Shown here: positions 2,376-13,711 of the stretch, piece by piece
Position numbering within the stretch: the first letter of the stretch is position 1
Layout: each line of letters opens with the position of its first letter
Assembly (NCBI GenBank): GCA_015272155.1
Contig: JACYME010000191.1
Location: 1-32,047 of the forward strand
Origin: Leptolyngbyaceae cyanobacterium T60_A2020_046
Lineage (GTDB): Bacteria; Cyanobacteriota; Cyanobacteriia; Phormidesmidales; Phormidesmidaceae
DNA length: 32,047 nt
Reading direction: 5' to 3'
Program-made: the position numbers and the translations under genes
Notes under the pieces: model-generated
Told to the model about the DNA's origin: nothing
Databases searched by the model: none
What the model saw: the letters and a program-made list of their open reading frames with translations, nothing else

Positions 2376-2921
2376 CTAATAGGGGCCAAACATCGAATTT
2401 GCAACTGAGTCGATGTTGTCGCCGAAAAAGAAGTCGTCAATCAATTCTGTCAATTCTTCCCGGCTAATGAACCCATCCTGATTCGCATCAATTTGCTGAA
2501 ACGCGATCGGGGCATAAACGGGATGAATGCCGTACACCCGAAAGAGTTCAGTCCATTCTTGCTGACTAATTTGGCCGTCCCCGTTATCATCAAAGACCTC
2601 AAAAATGAAGGTCATTAAGGACTGCACTTCCTTGACATATTGCGTCTCATCCGCCAGAACGTTGCTGTAGTACGCCAACCATTCCTCAAGGCTGACTTTT
2701 TGGTCGTGGCTGCTATCGGCCTTTTTGACCAGTTGTTTCCAGGCTTGGGAAAACTTGTCCTTCAGCAACAAACATTTAGCCGATCGCCCCCGCAAATCTT
2801 TGATTTCGGCGAGCTTATCCGCGATGCGCTCAAAGTCCTGACGGATGACGGTGCCATCACGATCGCCGTCATACATACAAAACAGCTTCAATAGCTTACG
2901 AGCCTGTAACTCCGTCAGCAT
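2376..2921 (-). CDS. EF-hand calcium-binding protein (calerythrin/sarcoplasmic-type)
   Basis: A 181-residue protein beginning MLTELQARKLLKLF and built from four EF-hand positions. The loops DGDRDGTVIRQD, DDNGDGQISQQE and DANQDGFISREE have acidic or Asn ligands at the right places. A second loop, ADSSHDQKVSLEE, is degenerate and may not bind calcium. There is no signal peptide, so a cytoplasmic calcium sensor or buffer is likely. The ATG at 2921 was chosen because AGGAG sits 6 bases before it and the MLTELQ opening matches related cyanobacterial proteins as I recall them. The frame is open up to an ATG at 3050 that overlaps the transaldolase stop (TGATG), but that 43-residue extension looks like non-coding sequence. 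The gene lies downstream of the EF-hand transaldolase on the same strand and may share its transcript. The target is unknown. Confidence 0.85.
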   Translation of the reverse strand: MLTELQARKLLKLFCMYDGDRDGTVIRQDFERIADKLAEIKDLRGRSAKCLLLKDKFSQAWKQLVKKADSSHDQKVSLEEWLAYYSNVLADETQYVKEVQSLMTFIFEVFDDNGDGQISQQEWTELFRVYGIHPVYAPIAFQQIDANQDGFISREELTELIDDFFFGDNIDSVANSMFGPY

Positions 2922-3049
2922 AGAACTCCTAGACGTTGAAAAAGGACATTCAGAAGAGAAAAAAGCAGCCTCAAAGGAGCGATCGCAGGACTCACGTTTC
3001 CCCTTGCACACCCCATGACAAACCGGAGTAAGCGGAGAATACTCGCCCA

Positions 3050-4222
3050 TCAGATCATTTGAAACGCTCCACCAAGGCCAGCGCAGATCTCATCTGCGGT
3101 GACCTTGCCATCATGATCAGCGTCAAGGGCATCAAAAACCGCATCCGTCCCGAGCCATTCCTCTCGAGTGATGTAGCCATCGCCATCAAGGTCATAGGCG
3201 CGGAACAAATCCTGCGCCGCATGATTCACAAATTGCTCCCCTTCCAATCGTTTTGAGAGGCGTTCTGCCAGCATTTTTTCTAGGGTTTCGAGAGCCTTGC
3301 TAAAGCCCTTAATGCCTTCATCCAGCTTTTCCGAGGCCATGGGATCTTGGGCGTGCATGGCCTCAAAGGTCGCCTGATCCATCGTTATTTTCTCAATATC
3401 CAACGCTGCACTCTTGGCGGGATCTAACTTGCGCGTTAGGGGTTCTTCAATCTCTTGAAGTTGGCTAAGAAGCTTTGGAGAAATGGTGAGCAAATCACAG
3501 CCCGCCAGTTCGCAAATCTCACCAATATTGCGGAAGCTTGCGCCCATCACTTCTGTGGAGTACCCAAACTTTTTGTAGTAGTTGTAGATTTGCGTGACAG
3601 ATAACACGCCTGGGTCTTCTGCCGGAGCGTAGTCTTTGCCCGTTGCTTGTTTATACCAGTCGAGAATGCGCCCGACAAAGGGCGAAATCAGGGTGACGCC
3701 CGCCTCGGCGCAGGCGATCGCTTGATGCAGGCCAAACAGCAGCGTTAGGTTGCAGTGAATGCCTTCTTTTTCGAGGACTTCAGCAGCGCGGATGCCTTCC
3801 CAGGTGGAGGCAATTTTGATGAGGACGCGATCGCGACTCACGCCCGCCGCCTCATACTGGGCAATCAAGTCGCGGGCGGTGTCCAGAGTGGCATCTGTGT
3901 CATAGGACAAACGGGCATCAACCTCTGTCGAAACGCGCCCTGGCACGATTTCCAAGATCTTGAGCCCAAAGGCCACCGCCAATCGTGTAAAGGCAAGGTT
4001 CGCCACCGCTTTGTCCGACCGTGAGGAACCTGCATCCTTCTTGGCCTTGAGCAAGGTTTCGTCCACAATGTCTTGATACTGGGGCATTTGAGCCGCCGCC
4101 GTAATCAAGGAGGGGTTTGTGGTGGCGTCCCGTGGCGTGAACATTTCAATCGCCTGCAAGTCGCCGGTATCTGCCACCACAATGGTCATATCCCGCAACT
4201 GCTCTAACAAGCTCCGTCCCAT
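3050..4222 (-). CDS. tal: Transaldolase with C-terminal EF-hand pair
   Basis: Cytosolic enzyme of the non-oxidative pentose phosphate pathway that moves a dihydroxyacetone unit between sugar phosphates through a Lys Schiff base. Of the 390 residues, about 1-325 are a TalB-type barrel: Asp18 in VVADTGD, Asn36 in TTNPSL, Glu100 in [13 protein letters not shown] and the Schiff-base Lys136 in [12 protein letters not shown]. The extra C-terminal part carries two EF-hand loops, [12 protein letters not shown] (344-355) and [12 protein letters not shown] (367-378), both with complete acidic ligands. A plain TalB-type enzyme is about 320 aa and lacks them; EF-hand-tailed transaldolases are known from cyanobacterial genomes. 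The stop overlaps by one base an ATG in the frame of the downstream EF-hand gene. Calcium control of the enzyme is inference. Confidence 0.93.
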
Positions 4223-5290: not shown

Positions 5291-8200
5291 TTAGCCTGTA
5301 TTTCTCATGCCAGCGGCAATCCCGTTGATGGTGAGCAGCGCGCCGCGCAGGAGTTCTTCACGGCTGTAGCGCGACTTCATCACGCCAGATGTGGAGTTGC
5401 GGTACTGGCGCAGTCGTTTTAGGAGCGACACCTGCAAAAAGCCCAGGGGGACGATGGTGCCATTGCGCAGATGCACCGATCGCTGGAGATCTGGGTCGCC
5501 ATCCAGCAGGCGATCGTGGCGGGTGATGCAAAGCACCATGTCGCGGGTGAGCTGAAATTCCTGGGAAATCGTCTCAAACAATGCCTGGAAGCGCTCCCGA
5601 TTTTCGGGCTGGGTTAGCTCTTGCACGTAGTGCTCCGCAATTTGCAGATCTACCTTCGAGAGGGTCATCTCCACCTTCGAGATCACCATCTTGAAGAACG
5701 GCCACTTTTGGTAGAAATAGCGCAGTAGTCGTATGTGCTCGGTGGGGGCAACGTCCACATACTCCTTCAGGGCCGTCCCTACCCCGTACCATGAGGGCAG
5801 CAGAAAGCGAGCCTGAGTCCAGCTAAAGACCCAGGGAATGGCCCGCAGGCTAGCGAGGGTCTTTTTGCCGCCGCGGCGGGCCGGACGGGAGGAGATTTGC
5901 AGTTGGCTGATTTCCTCAATGGGGGTGACCTGGTGGAAGAAATCCACCAAATCGGGCTGTTCATAAATCAGCTCGCGGTAGTGCCGCCGCGATCGCGCCG
6001 CCAGCCCCTCCATAATTTCATTCCACGGGTCAATTTCATCCACGCTGCTGTGCAGCAAGCTGCCTTGAATCACCGCTGCCGCAACGGTTTCCAAGTTGTA
6101 GAGGGCAAGGTCAGGCAGGTTGTACTTTGAGGCCAGCACCTCTCCCTGCTCCGTAATTTTGATCCGACCATTCAGGCTGGCACCGGGCTGAGCCAAAATC
6201 GCCTCGTAGGCGGGGCCACCGCCGCGCCCCACCGAGCCCCCCCGACCGTGGAAAATGCGCAGGGCAATTCCGTAGCGATCGGCGGTCGCCTGCAACGCTT
6301 GCTGGGCCTTGTGAATTTCCCAATTACTGCTGAGAAAGCCGGAATCTTTGTTGCTGTCTGAATAGCCCAGCATGACTTCCTGAATCGGCTTGGCACTGGT
6401 TTCGTCAGCCCCATCGGAGGCCAGTTCGCGCCCGCCATCAATCACGGTGCGATAGAGGGGCAGCTCAAACAGCTTTTCCATCACCGACGGAGCACGCTTC
6501 AGGTCTTCGACCGTCTCAAACAGCGGCACGGGCTGGATTGCCGACTCCCAAGAGGCTGGGTCGTATAGCCCAGCTTCCTTCGCCAGCAGCAGAACCTCAA
6601 GCAGGTCGCTGACATCGTGGCTCATGCTAATGATGTAGCTGCGGCAGATCTCTGGGCCAAATTCTTGATGGAGTCGCCGCACCATGCGGAAGGTTTCGAT
6701 CGCCTCGCAGGTTTTGTCTGAAAAAGGGAGTTCCGCCGGAATCAGCGGACGCCGGGTTTGCAGTTCCGCCGTCAGCCAAGCCGTTTTGTCGTCCTCTGAG
6801 AGGTCGTTGTAGGCATTGGAAAACACCTGCAAGTAAGCCGTCACCTCATCGATCGCATCGGAGTGGCGCGAGCTTTCCTGCCGAATGTCGAGCTGGGCCA
6901 GGATGAACCCATAAATTTCCACCTGGCAGAGCAAAATTTCGAGTTCCTGACACACCAAGCCTGTGGCGTTCAAATCGCGCTGGATCAGGCGCAGTTCTTC
7001 CAAAAACTCGTGGCCGTGGCGGTAGAAGGGCAAAGAGGGGGCATCACGCCGTTCTTGGGTCAGCCAGTCGCCTTCGTAGAGCTTTTGGCTGCGCTGGAGG
7101 GTATTTTCGAGGCGGCGTTGGATATAGGCCAGTTTCAGCCGATAGGGTTCTTGGCGATAGCGAATGGCCCACTGCTCATAGACCTCGGGCATCTGGCGCT
7201 GATCTTGATCGAGGGAGTCGAGTAGTTCGGGCTGAACTTCGCTCCAGTGCAGGGATAAGCTCAGCAGCTTGGTGAGATACTCGATGGAGCTGAGATATTT
7301 TTCAATGACCAGATTGCGCTGATAGCAGGCGGTTTTCCAGGTCACTTCGGGGGTGACGGAGGGGTTGCCATCGCGATCGGCTCCGACCCAGGAGCCAAAG
7401 CGGCAAAAGCCTTTGCGGGGCGGGTGTAGGGTTGGGAAGGTGGCCTTGAGGGCTCGCTCAAAGCGTTGGTAGAGTTGGGGCAGCGCTTCAAACAGCACCA
7501 CCTGGAAATAGTGGAGGGTGTAGTCCACTTCGTCGAGTACCGAAGGCTTGAACTGGTGCAGTTCGTCGGTGCGCCACCAGAGGCGAATTTCTTCGGTGAG
7601 CTGTTCTTTGAGCGACTCAATTTCCCAGGAAGAGAGTACGCCAAGGGCTTGGGCGCTGTCCTCAGCGCGATCGAGGTGGCGCAGAATCGACGCAATGCGG
7701 CGCTGTTTGTCGCGAATGGTGTGCCGCACAATTTCGGTGGGGTGGGCGGTGAAAACGAGGCGGATGTCGAGGGTGTCAATGAGCCGCTGAATGAGTTGGG
7801 GCGGCACGTTCAGATTTTTGAGGGTGGGCAGCAGCCAGTGAAAGGTGCCCGCTTCCTTTCGGTTGACGGAGTTGAGGGGGCTGAGGTCGTCGCTGGTGTC
7901 GCCTTCGACGGTGCTCTCTTGGTGATTGGCGGGGAGGCTGCTGTGGGGACGAAGGGCGGAGACCCCCGCGATCGCAGACCCCGAGTCAATTTCTTCATAG
8001 GTGACGCGATACTGACGCTGCTGCCCCTGCTGTTCGTAATGCTGCTCCACGCTGTTGATGAGCTGAAAATAGAGCGCAAAGGCCCGCGCGGCGCGAATCG
8101 CATCCTCCAGCTTTAGGTCTTCGACCACCTGCACCACGGTTTGCACGCTGGCAGCGCGAGCGGCAGGGGCTTGCCCATCGACGGAGCACAGTCGCCGCAG

Positions 8201-8404
8201 TTGATGCAGGAGAGTCAAGAGATCTTCGCCGCACTCATAGCGCAACACCGACTCCCACACGTCTTCGACCATTTTGATGCGGTGCTGCACGCGCAGGTCA
8301 TAGGCCGACCCTGGCGGAGTAATCGCCACAGCCGGGTCAAGCTCGCCCACCGATGCGGCAGGGTGGAGGTTGTCGGAGGTCGTCAGGGTAGATTTCATGG
8401 GCAT
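5291..8404 (-). CDS. ppc: Phosphoenolpyruvate carboxylase
   Basis: Cytosolic anaplerotic enzyme that makes oxaloacetate from PEP and bicarbonate, feeding the TCA branch and amino acids. It has 1037 residues, at the long end for the family, because of N-terminal inserts between about residues 130 and 190. Signature blocks are present: [12 protein letters not shown] with catalytic His221, [10 protein letters not shown] at about 680-689 and [14 protein letters not shown] with His719. The C-terminus ends MRNTG, the conserved tail of PEP carboxylases. Two Met codons (8404 and 8398) are possible starts; neither has a strong ribosome-binding site. A possible small gene lies 73 bases upstream on the same strand. 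T-rich sequence follows the stop, but no clear hairpin. Confidence 0.97.
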
Positions 8405-8477: not shown

Positions 8478-8633
8478 CTAGGGATCGGCGGCGTCCGAGG
8501 GTTCCGAGGGGGAATGGAGGGTGGGCAGGCGTTCACCACGAAACAGTTCTTCGCTGGCAAGGCCAAGTTGGGTGAGGCCATCGGCGATCGCGCGCGCGCC
8601 AATTAGCCCCAGTAAAAACGGCCCCGTCATCAT
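8478..8633 (-). CDS. Small conserved-looking cyanobacterial protein, unknown function
   Basis: A 51-residue protein starting MMTGPFLLGLIGARAIADGL and continuing TQLGLASEELFRGERLPTLH. I recall short cyanobacterial proteins with the same pattern (a hydrophobic start, then QLGxASEExFRGxRLPxL), but give no accession. The hydrophobic N-terminal half suggests membrane contact. The open frame extends upstream to 8717, but that part lacks the pattern, so the MM at 8633/8630 is the better start; there is no clear ribosome-binding site. It lies 73 bases upstream of ppc on the same strand and may be co-transcribed with it. No function assigned. Confidence 0.5.
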   Translation of the reverse strand: MMTGPFLLGLIGARAIADGLTQLGLASEELFRGERLPTLHSPSEPSDAADP

Positions 8634-9077
8634 GCTTACTACCACATCGAGGGACGGGTGTCCGTTCCGTGCAGTCATCGCCCGAGTTGGCTCTGCCGAG
8701 CCGTTAGAGATCGCCATAGGTCAGATTACTGTCAGTCCATCGGAAGATCCATATATATTTAATGACACCTCCGGGAGGTTCCCAACCGCAGGTGTTGGGA
8801 AATCTGTGAGATCGCCACACAAAAGTGGGGGGTCAAAGCCAGATTGCGGCCTGCGCTAGGCTCTAGATAGGGCGAGTTGCTTGGTGGTTTTACGGAGACT
8901 ACGATATGCTTCACAGCGATACCTGGGGGGTGCTTCTGGATATCTCGCTTTGGTCAATTTGCTAAAGACCGTGGGCTGGCCCGTGACTCTGAGCACACGA
9001 GCACTTTGACTGACTGTTTTGTCTGAACTGGGCTGGCTGCGGCGATCGCCGCCAGACTTCGCTGAACTTCAGTTGCC
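8634..9077. other. Divergent intergenic region between the ppc side and the SGNH/MBOAT operon
   Basis: About 440 bases without a convincing gene. It contains the AT-rich patch ATATATATTTAATG near 8750, a 13-base dyad ACCTCC-G-GGAGGT at 8767-8779 and a HIP1 copy near 9043. Promoters for both directions should lie here, but I could not fix any -10/-35 pair. Confidence 0.45.
8767..8779. promoter_or_regulatory. ACCTCC-G-GGAGGT dyad
   Basis: Perfect 6-base inverted repeat with one central base, just after an AT-rich patch, in the divergent region upstream of the SGNH/MBOAT operon. A possible operator; no regulator can be named. Confidence 0.25.
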
Positions 9078-12000
9078 ATGCGTGCAAAGTCCCCGATAAA
9101 TCTTAAAAAAAGCCGAAAGCTTAGCAGTATTGACCTGACTAAGTGGTTAGCTCAGCAGCTTGCGCCCGGAACAGCCCAAGTGCAGGTGCGGCTGCGGGGC
9201 AACATTTTGCATGTGTTGTGTGAAACGCCCCGTTCTTTGCCGCAGGTGAGCGCCCTGACTCGACTGGTTGCTGGGCTGATTGAGGAACCAGGGTGCGAGG
9301 TGCTCCGCGATCGCTATCCCCAGGTCTATCAACTGTACGTTTACAGTCGGTGCCAGGGCAGCGCCCAGCCAGATTGGACGGCACCCATCTATCTGAATCG
9401 GCTGGAGCGCCACCAAGCCCAACTGCGCCTCCAAGTACAAGACCCTGCCGAAGTCGCCGCCGCCCGCAGCCAGCTCCAAGACCCGGCGTCTCCCTTGCCG
9501 ACCTCTTGGCAAAAGGATGGGACCACGGCAGCGATCGTGTTGTCAAACCTGAGCTTGGCTCGCCAGGGCAAGCCGGAGGCGATCGCGTGGTATCTCAGCG
9601 AAGTGCTCAGCACCCTGGATGTCGGCGTCTGGGTCAGCATTCGGGCAGTCCCTGGCACCGCCAACCGTCCTCCTAACCGGCCAATGGCGTCTGAGCAGGC
9701 CGCCAAACCACCAGGGATGCCACGGCTGTGGATCCTGTGCGAGGCCGCCTACAGCCCCGACCCAATGATGATTGCCGAGCCCGTGACAGAACGGCTGCGG
9801 CAGCTTGAGCTAACTCAGTTTAAGGATGCGGTGTTGGTGATTCAGGTGCAGGGGGAGCGATCGCCCGATTGGAGCCTGCGCATTGACCTCACGCCCCCCC
9901 GCGAGATGCTGGCCGACTGGGCGCGCTGGGGAGATAGTGGCGCGATCGCCCGCCTCCTCAACCAAGACCTAGAACCCCTGCGCCTAACCGCCAGCCTAGA
10001 GCACAAAGACACCAGCCTGCACCTGATTGTCCAGACCGTGCAGGGCAATCACCAGGCCACGCCCGACGAAGGGGTCGCTCTTCAGGTCATTCAACCCCTG
10101 CTCGAACGCCTCGCCCCCCAAGGGCTCCACCGGGCCATGATCTACGGCCAACGCCCCCAAGCTTCGACACCGGGCTGGGTGCGCTGCCTGAACTTACCCG
10201 CGATCGATCACACCGCCCTGGCACCAACCCCCCAAACCCTGGCCCAGCAAGGCGATCTCCCCGCCCTCACCTACCTTCTGACGCGACGGCTCAACCCCGA
10301 CCTTGAGGCTCAACTGGCAACCGGCGGCACCCGTATCCAAATCCTCAAGCGGGGATCGCTGCTGCACATCATGGCCGACGCCCCCACCTGCCCCACGCGC
10401 CGCCAAGTTGTGCCCCGGGTGCTCGATACCCTCCAAACCCTCAAGATCAGCGGCATCAAGGGCGTACGGCTTTACGGTCGCCGGGCTGGGCAACAGCGCC
10501 CCGCTTGGAGCTACGGCACCGACTTTGAAGCCCGGCCCCGCTTGGTGCCCCAGGCCGAACCCAGCTTCGCAGCCTCCGACGCCTACGTGGGCGATTTGCT
10601 GTCTTACCCGGAAGATGGCGGCCTGCGGCCCGACCTCACCCCGGAGGAAGTGCGCAAAACCCTGACCACCTGGCGACAGCAAACCCTCGACATGCTGCGC
10701 CTGCTGTTGGTCAAGTCGCAGCTCTTTGTGCCCCATGATGAACTGCCGCGCACGCTGCTACCGTTGCCCAAGGCAGAACGGCGGGACGCCTTTAAGGTCG
10801 GCATTGTGTGGGCGCTGGTGGGCCTGGTGCTGTCCTTCCAGGTCGATTGGGTTTTAGGTCAGGTGATGAATCCCCAATCTCAGCAGGTGGCTGCCGATGC
10901 AGCGGAGTTGCCACCCCCTGCTGGGGGCGATCGCGACGATTTTGATAGCCTGCTGTCTGATCTAGAGTGGGGTAACGAGTCTGCAAACGACAACTTCAGG
11001 GATGAAGGCTTTACGGAGGATGGATTTACCGGGGATCAGCGCGATCGCGACCCGTGGGAAGACACCGGGCGATCGCTCGAAGCCAGCCCCGATCAGTCCC
11101 TTGCGCCAACCCCTGCCCTGCTCGAAAGCTCCCCCTACGCCTCCTTCCGCAGCCAACAGCTCGACGAAAAACTAGCCCTTTATCACCAGCGCGTCCAAGA
11201 ATCTGGCCCGCCCGATGTCCTGATTATCGGCAGCTCCCGCGCGCTGCGAGGGGTTGACCCCGCCGCCCTGCGGCAAGAACTAGCAGCCCTGGGGTTTGGC
11301 ACCCTCGACATTTTCAACTTTGGCGTCAACGGCTCCACCGCCCAAGTCGTGGATCTCACCCTGCGGCGAATTCTGGAAGTGGATCAACTGCCGCGCCTGA
11401 TTCTCTGGGCCGATGGCGCGCGTGCCTTTAACAGTGGACGAGTGGATGTCACCTACAACGGCATTGCGACCTCCGAGGGCTATCGTGAGCTGGATCGCCG
11501 CCGCCCGGAAGTGCCCGCCGAAGCCCCCACGGCAACGGAGGATGTGCCGCAGATTCTGACCCTAGATGCATCCCTCAGATCGGGTTATCAGGACATGGAT
11601 CGCCTGCTCAGCGAGCGTCTCGGGGAATTTTCAGCGGTCTATGATGGGCGCGATCGCCTCAAAGCGATCGTGCGAGACTCGATTCTGGTTCCCGCAGTCG
11701 CCCCACTCACCTTCCCCCTCGCCATCCAAGGGGAAACCCGACAAACCTCAGAAATGCCGCTGCCCGAAAATAGCCGCATCGACTTTGATGGCTTCCTGGC
11801 TCTCGACCTGCGGTTTAACCCCGCCACCTACTACCAGCTCTATGCCCGCGTCTCTGGAGCCTACGACAGCGACTATAAAGACTTTGTCCTGGGCGGTCAG
11901 CAAGCCCAAGCGTTAGAGCGGTTGCTGGAGTTCACCCAAAGCCAAGGCGTGCCTGTCGCGTTCATTAACACGCCCCTGACCGACGAATACCTCGACACCT

Positions 12001-12227
12001 ACCGCATGGAGGCCGAGCGGGAATTCCAGCGGTTTATGCTGCAACTGTCTACATCACAGTCAGGCTTCATCTTCCGCGACCTGGGCCAAATCTGGCCCGA
12101 TCGCTACGACTACTTTTCAGACCCCAGCCACCTCAACCGCTATGGCGCATACCAAGTCTCTAACCGGATTGCCCAAGACCCGATGATCCCCTGGCCGACT
12201 GCGCTTGACGCTGCCCCCAACCCATGA
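9078..12227 (+). CDS. Membrane-anchored SGNH-hydrolase-like protein (DUF1574-like) with four N-terminal repeat modules
   Basis: A 1049-residue protein in three parts. Residues about 17-485 hold four diverged ~90-residue modules (about 17-108, 165-272, 286-374, 392-484). Each runs LxxxLxP, then a LHVL-like strand (ILHVLCE, LWILCEA, LHLIVQT, LHIMADA), a helix, a YVYS/YGRR-like strand and a closing P-x-W. One transmembrane helix follows at about 574-594, then an acidic linker. From about 690 comes an SGNH/GDSL-like domain: DVLIIGSSRALRG with nucleophile candidate Ser720, FNFGVNGSTA, LILWADGARAFN and SDPSHLNRYGA with Asp1015 and His1018. With no signal peptide, the repeats are likely cytoplasmic and the SGNH part periplasmic. 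It overlaps the MBOAT gene by ATGA, so a role in O-acylation of an envelope polymer is inferred. The DUF1574 label is from memory. The start has no clear ribosome-binding site. Confidence 0.85.
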   Translation: MRAKSPINLKKSRKLSSIDLTKWLAQQLAPGTAQVQVRLRGNILHVLCETPRSLPQVSALTRLVAGLIEEPGCEVLRDRYPQVYQLYVYSRCQGSAQPDWTAPIYLNRLERHQAQLRLQVQDPAEVAAARSQLQDPASPLPTSWQKDGTTAAIVLSNLSLARQGKPEAIAWYLSEVLSTLDVGVWVSIRAVPGTANRPPNRPMASEQAAKPPGMPRLWILCEAAYSPDPMMIAEPVTERLRQLELTQFKDAVLVIQVQGERSPDWSLRIDLTPPREMLADWARWGDSGAIARLLNQDLEPLRLTASLEHKDTSLHLIVQTVQGNHQATPDEGVALQVIQPLLERLAPQGLHRAMIYGQRPQASTPGWVRCLNLPAIDHTALAPTPQTLAQQGDLPALTYLLTRRLNPDLEAQLATGGTRIQILKRGSLLHIMADAPTCPTRRQVVPRVLDTLQTLKISGIKGVRLYGRRAGQQRPAWSYGTDFEARPRLVPQAEPSFAASDAYVGDLLSYPEDGGLRPDLTPEEVRKTLTTWRQQTLDMLRLLLVKSQLFVPHDELPRTLLPLPKAERRDAFKVGIVWALVGLVLSFQVDWVLGQVMNPQSQQVAADAAELPPPAGGDRDDFDSLLSDLEWGNESANDNFRDEGFTEDGFTGDQRDRDPWEDTGRSLEASPDQSLAPTPALLESSPYASFRSQQLDEKLALYHQRVQESGPPDVLIIGSSRALRGVDPAALRQELAALGFGTLDIFNFGVNGSTAQVVDLTLRRILEVDQLPRLILWADGARAFNSGRVDVTYNGIATSEGYRELDRRRPEVPAEAPTATEDVPQILTLDASLRSGYQDMDRLLSERLGEFSAVYDGRDRLKAIVRDSILVPAVAPLTFPLAIQGETRQTSEMPLPENSRIDFDGFLALDLRFNPATYYQLYARVSGAYDSDYKDFVLGGQQAQALERLLEFTQSQGVPVAFINTPLTDEYLDTYRMEAEREFQRFMLQLSTSQSGFIFRDLGQIWPDRYDYFSDPSHLNRYGAYQVSNRIAQDPMIPWPTALDAAPNP
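9126..10529 (+). repeat. Four tandem ~90-residue protein modules
   Basis: Coding repeat within the SGNH protein. Modules 3 and 4 are the most regular (AIARLLNQDLEP and ALTYLLTRRLNP at their starts; MIYGQRP and RLYGRRA near their ends). Module 2 carries a Pro-rich insert at about residues 192-215. Divergence at DNA level shows an old duplication. Confidence 0.65.
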
Positions 12228-13711
12228 CGCTGCCCTCTATCGTCTACGGCTTATTTTTGCTCAGCGTGATTGGCCTGTATTGGTCTGTCTCGGTGCGATC
12301 GCTGAGAATCTGGCTCTTGGTGATCGCCAGCCTGGTGTTTTACACCTCGCTGCAAGTGAACTATTTGCCGTTGGTCGCCGTCTTGGTGGGGTTTAACTAC
12401 TGGTTTGGCCGCGTACTGACCACCCCGCTCAACTGGCGGATTCCTAACGAGCAGTGGCAGGTCGCCGAGGCTGGCTGGCATCGGCGGCGGCAGGCGTGGC
12501 TCTGGGTGGGCATTGGCGTCAATGTCCTGACGTTGCTGGCCTTTAAGTATGTGGATACGTGGCTCACTTGGGTTTGGCCCCCCGCTACTGGCCCCGATGC
12601 GCCCCTCACCGATTGGCGCGCGATCGCCTTTCCCCTCGGGCTGAGCTTCTTCACCTTTGAGTGCATCGCCTACTTGGTTGATGTGTATCGTGGGGCACCC
12701 GCCACCCGCAATCTGGCCGAATTTGCCGCCTACAAGCTGTTTTTTCCAAAGCTGATCTCCGGGCCAATTACACGCTTCCACAGCTTTACCAATCAGCTCA
12801 AGTCACAACCTAATCTCGATTGGAACTGGGTTGTCGAAGGACTCTGGCTGATTGCCGTCGGTTCAGTCAAAAAGCTGCTGATTGCTGACCACATCGCTAT
12901 TTTGGTCAACCTCAGCTTCGACAATTTAGAACGGGCGGGCAGTGGCGACATTTGGCTAGCAACCTTTGCCTATGGCATTCAGCTTTACCTCGACTTTAGC
13001 GGCTATGTGGATATTGCCCGTGGCAGCGCTCTGCTGTTGGGCATTAACCTGCCGCAAAACTTCAACTTTCCCTACCTCACGACCAGCATTGCGGAATTTT
13101 GGCGGCGGTGGCACATCACCCTGGGCGACTGGTTGCGAAATTATCTGTACTTTCCCCTCGGGGGATCACGGCGCGGGCTGGCGCGCACCTGCACCAACCT
13201 GCTGATTGTGATGCTGATCGCTGGAGTGTGGCACGGCGACACCTGGGGCTTCCTAATTTGGGGCGGCATTCATGGTGTGGCACTGGCAGTTCATCGTGTG
13301 AATCACGCGATCGCCAATCGCTGGACCGGCCTCGATAAACTGTGGCAAACCCCCTTCGGCATCGTCCTGAGTTGGGGGCTCACCCAAGCCCTCGTCTTCG
13401 GTAGTTGGCTATTCTTCCGACTGCCCGAACCCCGACAATTTACGCTCGCCCTCCAGCGGGTGTGGGGCACCGCGAGCGATGCCCAATTTATGCAGCAGGT
13501 CTATGGAGAAGCGATCGGGCTATCTCCATCGCAACTGTGGGGGTTACTGATTCTTGTCATGGGGATCATGGGCCTCACCTATGGCGTGCAGCACAGCTTG
13601 AAGCTGCAACTCAACTGGCCGCTCAAGCTCCTGCTCGTCCCCCTTTGCCTCTTCGCCGCCTGGATCCTTGCCCCAACGGAAACCCTGCCCTACATCTACT
13701 TTGAGTTCTAG
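12224..13711 (+). CDS. MBOAT-family membrane O-acyltransferase (AlgI/DltB-like)
   Basis: A 495-residue polytopic inner-membrane protein, about the usual length for AlgI-like MBOATs. These proteins pass acetyl or other acyl groups across the membrane to a periplasmic acceptor or partner. Conserved blocks are EFWRRWHITLGDWLRNYLYF with His297, PLGGSRRG, and the catalytic-His block AGVWHGDTWGFLIWGGIHG with His337. Also typical are FPLGLSFFTFECIAYLVDVYRG and FFPKLISGPITR. Its ATG overlaps the upstream SGNH gene stop (ATGA), so translation is probably coupled, and the pair mirrors AlgI with AlgJ/AlgX in alginate acetylation. The substrate polymer cannot be named from sequence. The frame ends PYIYFEF. 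There is no strong terminator downstream. Confidence 0.93.
   Translation: MTLPSIVYGLFLLSVIGLYWSVSVRSLRIWLLVIASLVFYTSLQVNYLPLVAVLVGFNYWFGRVLTTPLNWRIPNEQWQVAEAGWHRRRQAWLWVGIGVNVLTLLAFKYVDTWLTWVWPPATGPDAPLTDWRAIAFPLGLSFFTFECIAYLVDVYRGAPATRNLAEFAAYKLFFPKLISGPITRFHSFTNQLKSQPNLDWNWVVEGLWLIAVGSVKKLLIADHIAILVNLSFDNLERAGSGDIWLATFAYGIQLYLDFSGYVDIARGSALLLGINLPQNFNFPYLTTSIAEFWRRWHITLGDWLRNYLYFPLGGSRRGLARTCTNLLIVMLIAGVWHGDTWGFLIWGGIHGVALAVHRVNHAIANRWTGLDKLWQTPFGIVLSWGLTQALVFGSWLFFRLPEPRQFTLALQRVWGTASDAQFMQQVYGEAIGLSPSQLWGLLILVMGIMGLTYGVQHSLKLQLNWPLKLLLVPLCLFAAWILAPTETLPYIYFEF

Follow-up and report, generated by a model that had tools for sequence, protein, structure and literature searches.

What reaction is carried out by a large, modular protein whose gene runs directly into that of a membrane-bound acyltransferase? 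The question is raised by a 32,047-nucleotide stretch of DNA from Leptolyngbyaceae cyanobacterium T60_A2020_046 (contig JACYME010000191.1, positions 1 to 32,047; hereafter the window), and a preliminary description made from the sequence alone had read the two proteins as an MBOAT plus SGNH system for acyl transfer across the membrane. Our analysis leads to the prediction that they form a conserved MBOAT-SGNH acyltransferase of new architecture, with chemistry of a known plan. The novelty lies in the cytoplasmic modules and in the distribution among filamentous species.

Two overlapping genes next to a syntenic marker

Both open reading frames are present as first described, on the plus strand at 9078 to 12227 (modular SGNH protein, 1049 aa) and 12224 to 13711 (MBOAT acyltransferase, 495 aa), with an ATGA overlap. 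A PEPC gene (PF00311) lies divergently at 5291 to 8404 on the minus strand and served as a syntenic marker, being divergent and upstream of the SGNH gene in 63 of 73 loci. We considered PEPC as a component of the system and rejected it; the gene remains in place where the MBOAT gene has moved away (e.g., loci L093, L095, and L108), which suggests plain synteny. A small conserved ORF at 8478 to 8717 on the minus strand (79 aa) resembles Anabaena asl4862 in position and size and possibly has one membrane segment. It matched no Pfam family, and its motif SEE[LV]FRG[DE]RLP/L, which reads SEELFRGERLP in the window, is common to Nostoc and Leptolyngbya loci. Farther away, at 2376 to 4222 on the minus strand, the window encodes a transaldolase with C-terminal EF-hands, and the protein next to it has several EF-hand motifs of its own.

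A membrane-anchored protein with a predicted SGNH domain

The 1049-aa protein has a single strong membrane candidate, the hydrophobic segment at residues 571 to 597, in agreement with the one transmembrane helix first proposed. The predicted helix has its core at residues 574 to 594 (10797 to 10859, plus strand; hydrophobicity maximum 571 to 594), and its flanks show an N-in charge bias in 56 of 67 relatives when six residues are taken on each side, a bias that vanishes with wider flanks. From the membrane a variable linker, modeled at low confidence (residues 598 to 664; 10869 to 11069, plus strand; pLDDT under 50), leads to the C-terminal domain.

Most of that domain is predicted at high confidence in an AlphaFold model of the protein (67 relatives), and the model contains the SGNH fold on which the earlier reading depended. 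Comparison by VIA-align gave DltD as the top solved match (7dxm; Z 13.1, 4.2 Å, 245 residues), followed by esterases and PatB (Z 11.3), with all matches covering residues ~690 to 1045. Foldseek with the whole 1049-residue model likewise ranked DltD and GDSL esterases high, none below E 0.001; searches of PDB sequences with the protein or its profile gave no match, and fold comparison alone succeeded. Within the putative periplasmic domain (residues 688 to 1042; 11139 to 12203, plus strand), GSSR at 718 to 721, Asn751-Gly752, Asp779, and DPSH at 1015 to 1018 are invariant across the 67 relatives. These include the predicted catalytic residues Ser720 (11235), Asp1015 (12120), and His1018 (12129), and their order fits the model, in which a strand ends at 719, a helix lies at 720, and DPSH stands just before the last long helix. 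Sequence and model together indicate an SGNH protein in its own right, anchored in the membrane and carrying the predicted Ser, Asp, and His residues.

The sole Pfam match of the protein is DUF1574 (PF07611), which covers the C-terminal third at E 9e-6 with a score of 25.7 bits, under the gathering cutoff of 29.1. In a Pfam scan that took in 21 of the 67 relatives, 19 matched DUF1574 at E 0.01, with E values down to 1.8e-8, and by these scores the window protein is a distant relative of the family. The alginate-system domain ALGX (PF16822) gave no match to the window protein at E 1 and none to the 21 relatives at E 0.01. In one relative (L027, G017:C11), the gene consists of two overlapping frames (residues 1 to 474 and 470 to 1043), either a draft-assembly frameshift or a real split between the modules and the rest.

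An MBOAT protein ending in a tyrosine hexapeptide

The second gene product bears the motifs WHITLGDWLRN and VWHGDTWG that had been pointed out in it, and its identity as an MBOAT is borne out by PF03062 (E 8e-30). With phmmer, residues 134 to 357 align to DltB, placing His337 (13232, plus strand) opposite His336 and His297 (13112, plus strand) opposite His289, the former being the catalytic histidine of DltB and the latter also named in the same study (PMC11035591). Neither residue varies among 67 homologues.

The protein ends in YIYFEF (13691 to 13708, plus strand), a putative acyl-shuttle hexapeptide whose Tyr492 (13697) is invariant in the 67 homologues. A C terminus of the form [FYH][IV]YFx[FY] is present in all 60 homologues from named loci and in six unlinked ones. 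In PatA, the C-terminal hexapeptide is FIYANF, and its tyrosine is auto-acetylated from acetyl-CoA before the group is passed to PatB (PMC12148441); in the Dlt system, the shuttle hexapeptide FLYFGF sits on DltX (PMC11035591). As a sequence feature, this hexapeptide is the strongest new evidence on the predicted mechanism.

The two genes occur together even when unlinked

Among 80 named relatives, an MBOAT gene lies directly downstream of the SGNH gene in 63 of the 77 testable loci. Where an MBOAT gene adjoins, in 65 relatives, the same 4-base overlap is kept in 20, which argues that the features observed are not due to chance. Universal adjacency, which we also considered, is rejected, since the pair is unlinked in 45 of the 62 genomes that have both. 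The expectation that the genes would adjoin across cyanobacteria is therefore borne out for most of the 77 loci and fails as a general rule, yet genomes with an unlinked pair retain the MBOAT orthologue at another site.

The SGNH family was found in 65 of 116 cyanobacterial genomes. With MBOAT orthologues called from 481 bits upward (the next-best MBOATs reach 303 at most), both genes are present in 62 genomes, the SGNH or the MBOAT gene alone in 3 and 1, respectively, and neither in 50; the 62 include two genomes below the first threshold (G093 and G103) that were added on a second look, and the 50 were scored at the first threshold. All four genomes with only one gene are less than 94% complete. 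Fisher's test gives p ~1e-27, a descriptive value that ignores shared ancestry. The six unlinked MBOAT orthologues, 50 to 60% identical and with the same C terminus, are lone genes beside which no other SGNH partner was found, and several other MBOATs in those six genomes adjoin a partner gene of their own. Across the sampled genomes, the pairing of both genes is conserved, and the prediction of a dedicated MBOAT-SGNH envelope acyltransferase is well supported.

Elsewhere in the genome to which the window belongs, another SGNH/DUF1574-like protein is encoded that is shorter than the first (464 aa, without modules; locus L035, contig C65, 7836 to 9230). No MBOAT was found beside it, and the genome has one MBOAT only. 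Short paralogues similar to it occur in most relatives. An ALGX-domain match just over the cutoff was seen at another locus of this single-MBOAT genome (L179, contig C56, 17367 to 17711). The arrangement resembles AlgI/AlgJ/AlgX, in which an MBOAT also works with periplasmic SGNH proteins, in that one MBOAT coexists with more than one SGNH candidate; by analogy, the 464-aa paralogue may use the same MBOAT, just as AlgI serves both AlgJ and AlgX.

Four copies of an unnamed module

Ahead of the membrane helix, the SGNH protein carries a module of about 90 aa four times, so that the four repeats first described are confirmed by profile. On the plus strand, module 1 (residues 21 to 104; 9138 to 9389) scores i-E 1.1e-5 with a model pLDDT of about 90, and module 2 (residues 158 to 271, with an insert; 9549 to 9890) is matched as two segments (i-E 0.004 and 3.4e-6). 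The profile was built partly from other proteins and includes modules 3 and 4 of the window protein, copies whose own values therefore reflect their part in it: module 3 (residues 278 to 373; 9909 to 10196) at i-E 2.9e-32, with a pLDDT of about 96, and module 4 (residues 385 to 482; 10230 to 10523) at i-E 1.2e-31, seen also in the model. Of the 67 full-length relatives, 66 have four modules by this profile and one has three.

The predicted fold of the module is alpha-beta-beta-alpha-beta-beta. A model of a module pair (pLDDT 95) had its best PDB match at Z 7.1 in a list of generic alpha-beta folds (BON, ring-building motif, OsmC), and assignment to a known fold family was rejected on that basis. 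In the window protein, Pfam matched nothing in the part that the modules occupy, and a viral structure library returned nothing useful. In a sample of the phylum, the profile matched in 18 of 59 photosynthetic cyanobacterial genomes and in 0 of 38 from the other classes, which are nonphotosynthetic. As judged from these matches, the module is an unnamed domain confined, within the sample, to photosynthetic cyanobacteria.

The module was also seen on a GUN4-TPR protein, an NB-ARC STAND protein, a pentapeptide membrane protein, and a membrane-protein family with an HExxH-like motif, and as a 104-aa stand-alone copy (L048, L049, L050, L051, L036, and L037). Such company suggests that the module is a cytoplasmic protein-contact domain and not a catalytic one. 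The membrane topology, and the presence of the same domain on evidently cytoplasmic proteins, likewise support the large cytoplasmic part that had been thought probable; the sensing or scaffold role proposed for it is a guess. One cyanobacterial family (L164 and L165) has an SGNH version of ~700 aa with one or two weak modules, an unlinked MBOAT, and no HetR.

The Anabaena orthologue and the filamentous habit

Ranked by locus number, the Anabaena 7120 genes are all4861 (PEPC), asl4862 (77 aa), and alr4863 (999 aa) (PMC4005646, PMC2823733). Given the same gene order and a similar length, alr4863 is the orthologue of the SGNH gene by synteny (PEPC, small ORF, gene) and length, not by sequence. 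It has been listed as specific to Nostocales and Oscillatoriales (PMC2823733) and, as a hypothetical protein, belongs to a ten-gene core set exclusive to filamentous species together with hetR, hetZ, and patU3 (PMC2821919). These sources give neither architecture nor partner nor mechanism, and in the literature searched alr4863 is named in two gene lists alone, with no functional study. A review assigns DUF1574 no known function, activity, or structure (PMC9487903), and the statement that this architecture has no described function holds in the literature searched.

Of the 116 genomes, 55 have the SGNH protein together with HetR, against exceptions in 10 and 2. The unicellular control Synechococcus elongatus has no match to PF03062 or DUF1574. 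This link to filaments is correlative.

Discussion

We propose, with a probability of roughly 0.8, that the two proteins are a predicted MBOAT-SGNH acyltransferase with a tyrosine relay onto an envelope or extracellular polymer. On the cytoplasmic side, the MBOAT would accept an acyl group, which is most likely acetyl donated by acetyl-CoA; with His337 it would move the group onto its own Tyr492 on the periplasmic side. The YIYFEF peptide would then hand the group to Ser720 of the SGNH domain, which would stay at the membrane through its single helix and flexible linker and would place the acyl group on a hydroxyl of the polymer, while the four cytoplasmic modules would use protein contacts to recruit the complex or control it. 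We infer the order of the steps and the topology by homology; acetyl as the group, polysaccharide as the acceptor, and the role of the modules are guessed. The transmembrane acyl transfer that had been envisaged for the pair is supported by the fold, the invariant residues, the hexapeptide, and the co-occurrence, and the near-perfect co-occurrence even of unlinked genes, taken with the hexapeptide, makes MBOAT-SGNH acyl transfer the more strongly supported.

Among known systems, PatA/PatB of Neisseria and Campylobacter, a peptidoglycan O-acetyltransferase, likewise combines an MBOAT with a catalytic histidine and a C-terminal tyrosine hexapeptide with a separate membrane-anchored SGNH protein, whose fold is matched here; a four-module cytoplasmic part is not described there. 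OatA-type enzymes join AT3 and SGNH in one polypeptide, whereas here there are two separate proteins, and the membrane partner is an MBOAT, not AT3.

A further difference from PatB bears on whether the SGNH domain transfers acyl groups at all. The block II glycine is replaced in PatB and OatA, a change tied to transferase over hydrolase activity (PMC12148441), whereas in the window protein it is kept (Gly752, assigned by position) and is invariant in relatives. This hydrolase-typical residue and the many esterases among the close structural matches would fit a domain that takes off acyl groups, whether the MBOAT or a different enzyme had put them on, the pair then tuning acylation instead of passing the group along in series. 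However, the best structural match, DltD, belongs to a transfer pathway, and the tyrosine shuttle peptide of the MBOAT needs an SGNH acceptor, for which the six unlinked orthologues have no other adjoining candidate. We regard an esterase as very unlikely.

The predicted transferase might instead act on a lipid, a surface protein, or an exported small molecule. Such acceptors would suit the varied substrates of SGNH domains and a window in which no polysaccharide genes, and no alginate genes, were recognized near the pair. The characterized MBOAT-SGNH pairs in our sources, however, all modify envelope polymers (PMC12148441), and a nonpolysaccharide acceptor appears highly improbable. We give hardly any credence to a Dlt-like cyanobacterial system for D-alanylation, as in the DltB/DltD/DltX modification of teichoic acid, since the MBOAT, despite its DltB-type catalytic core and a partner whose best fold match is DltD, scores 160.8 bits against the DltB model, far under the equivalog cutoff of 375, the genome has no DltA over the cutoff (best match 45 versus 560 bits), and the tyrosine hexapeptide forms part of the MBOAT itself, an arrangement shared with CoA-using systems, and not of a separate DltX.

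Returning to the proposed polymer acyltransferase, we further speculate that it is part of the basic equipment of filament-forming cyanobacteria, that the four modules switch it or position it from the cytoplasmic side, and that it is needed to build or hold the filament (septum, sheath, or slime), a tentative idea that we consider possible rather than probable.

Cyanobacterial exopolysaccharides are reported to bear ester-linked acetyl in a phylum-wide survey that left AlgI-type MBOATs unpursued (PMC4594306). The pair described here is a concrete candidate for an acylation machine, and roughly half of the cyanobacterial genomes sampled have it. A function for it would be a first for the DUF1574 relatives and for the unnamed cyanobacterial module domain. 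With the SGNH gene's place in the filamentous set, its deletion in Anabaena would test if envelope acylation has a bearing on multicellularity.
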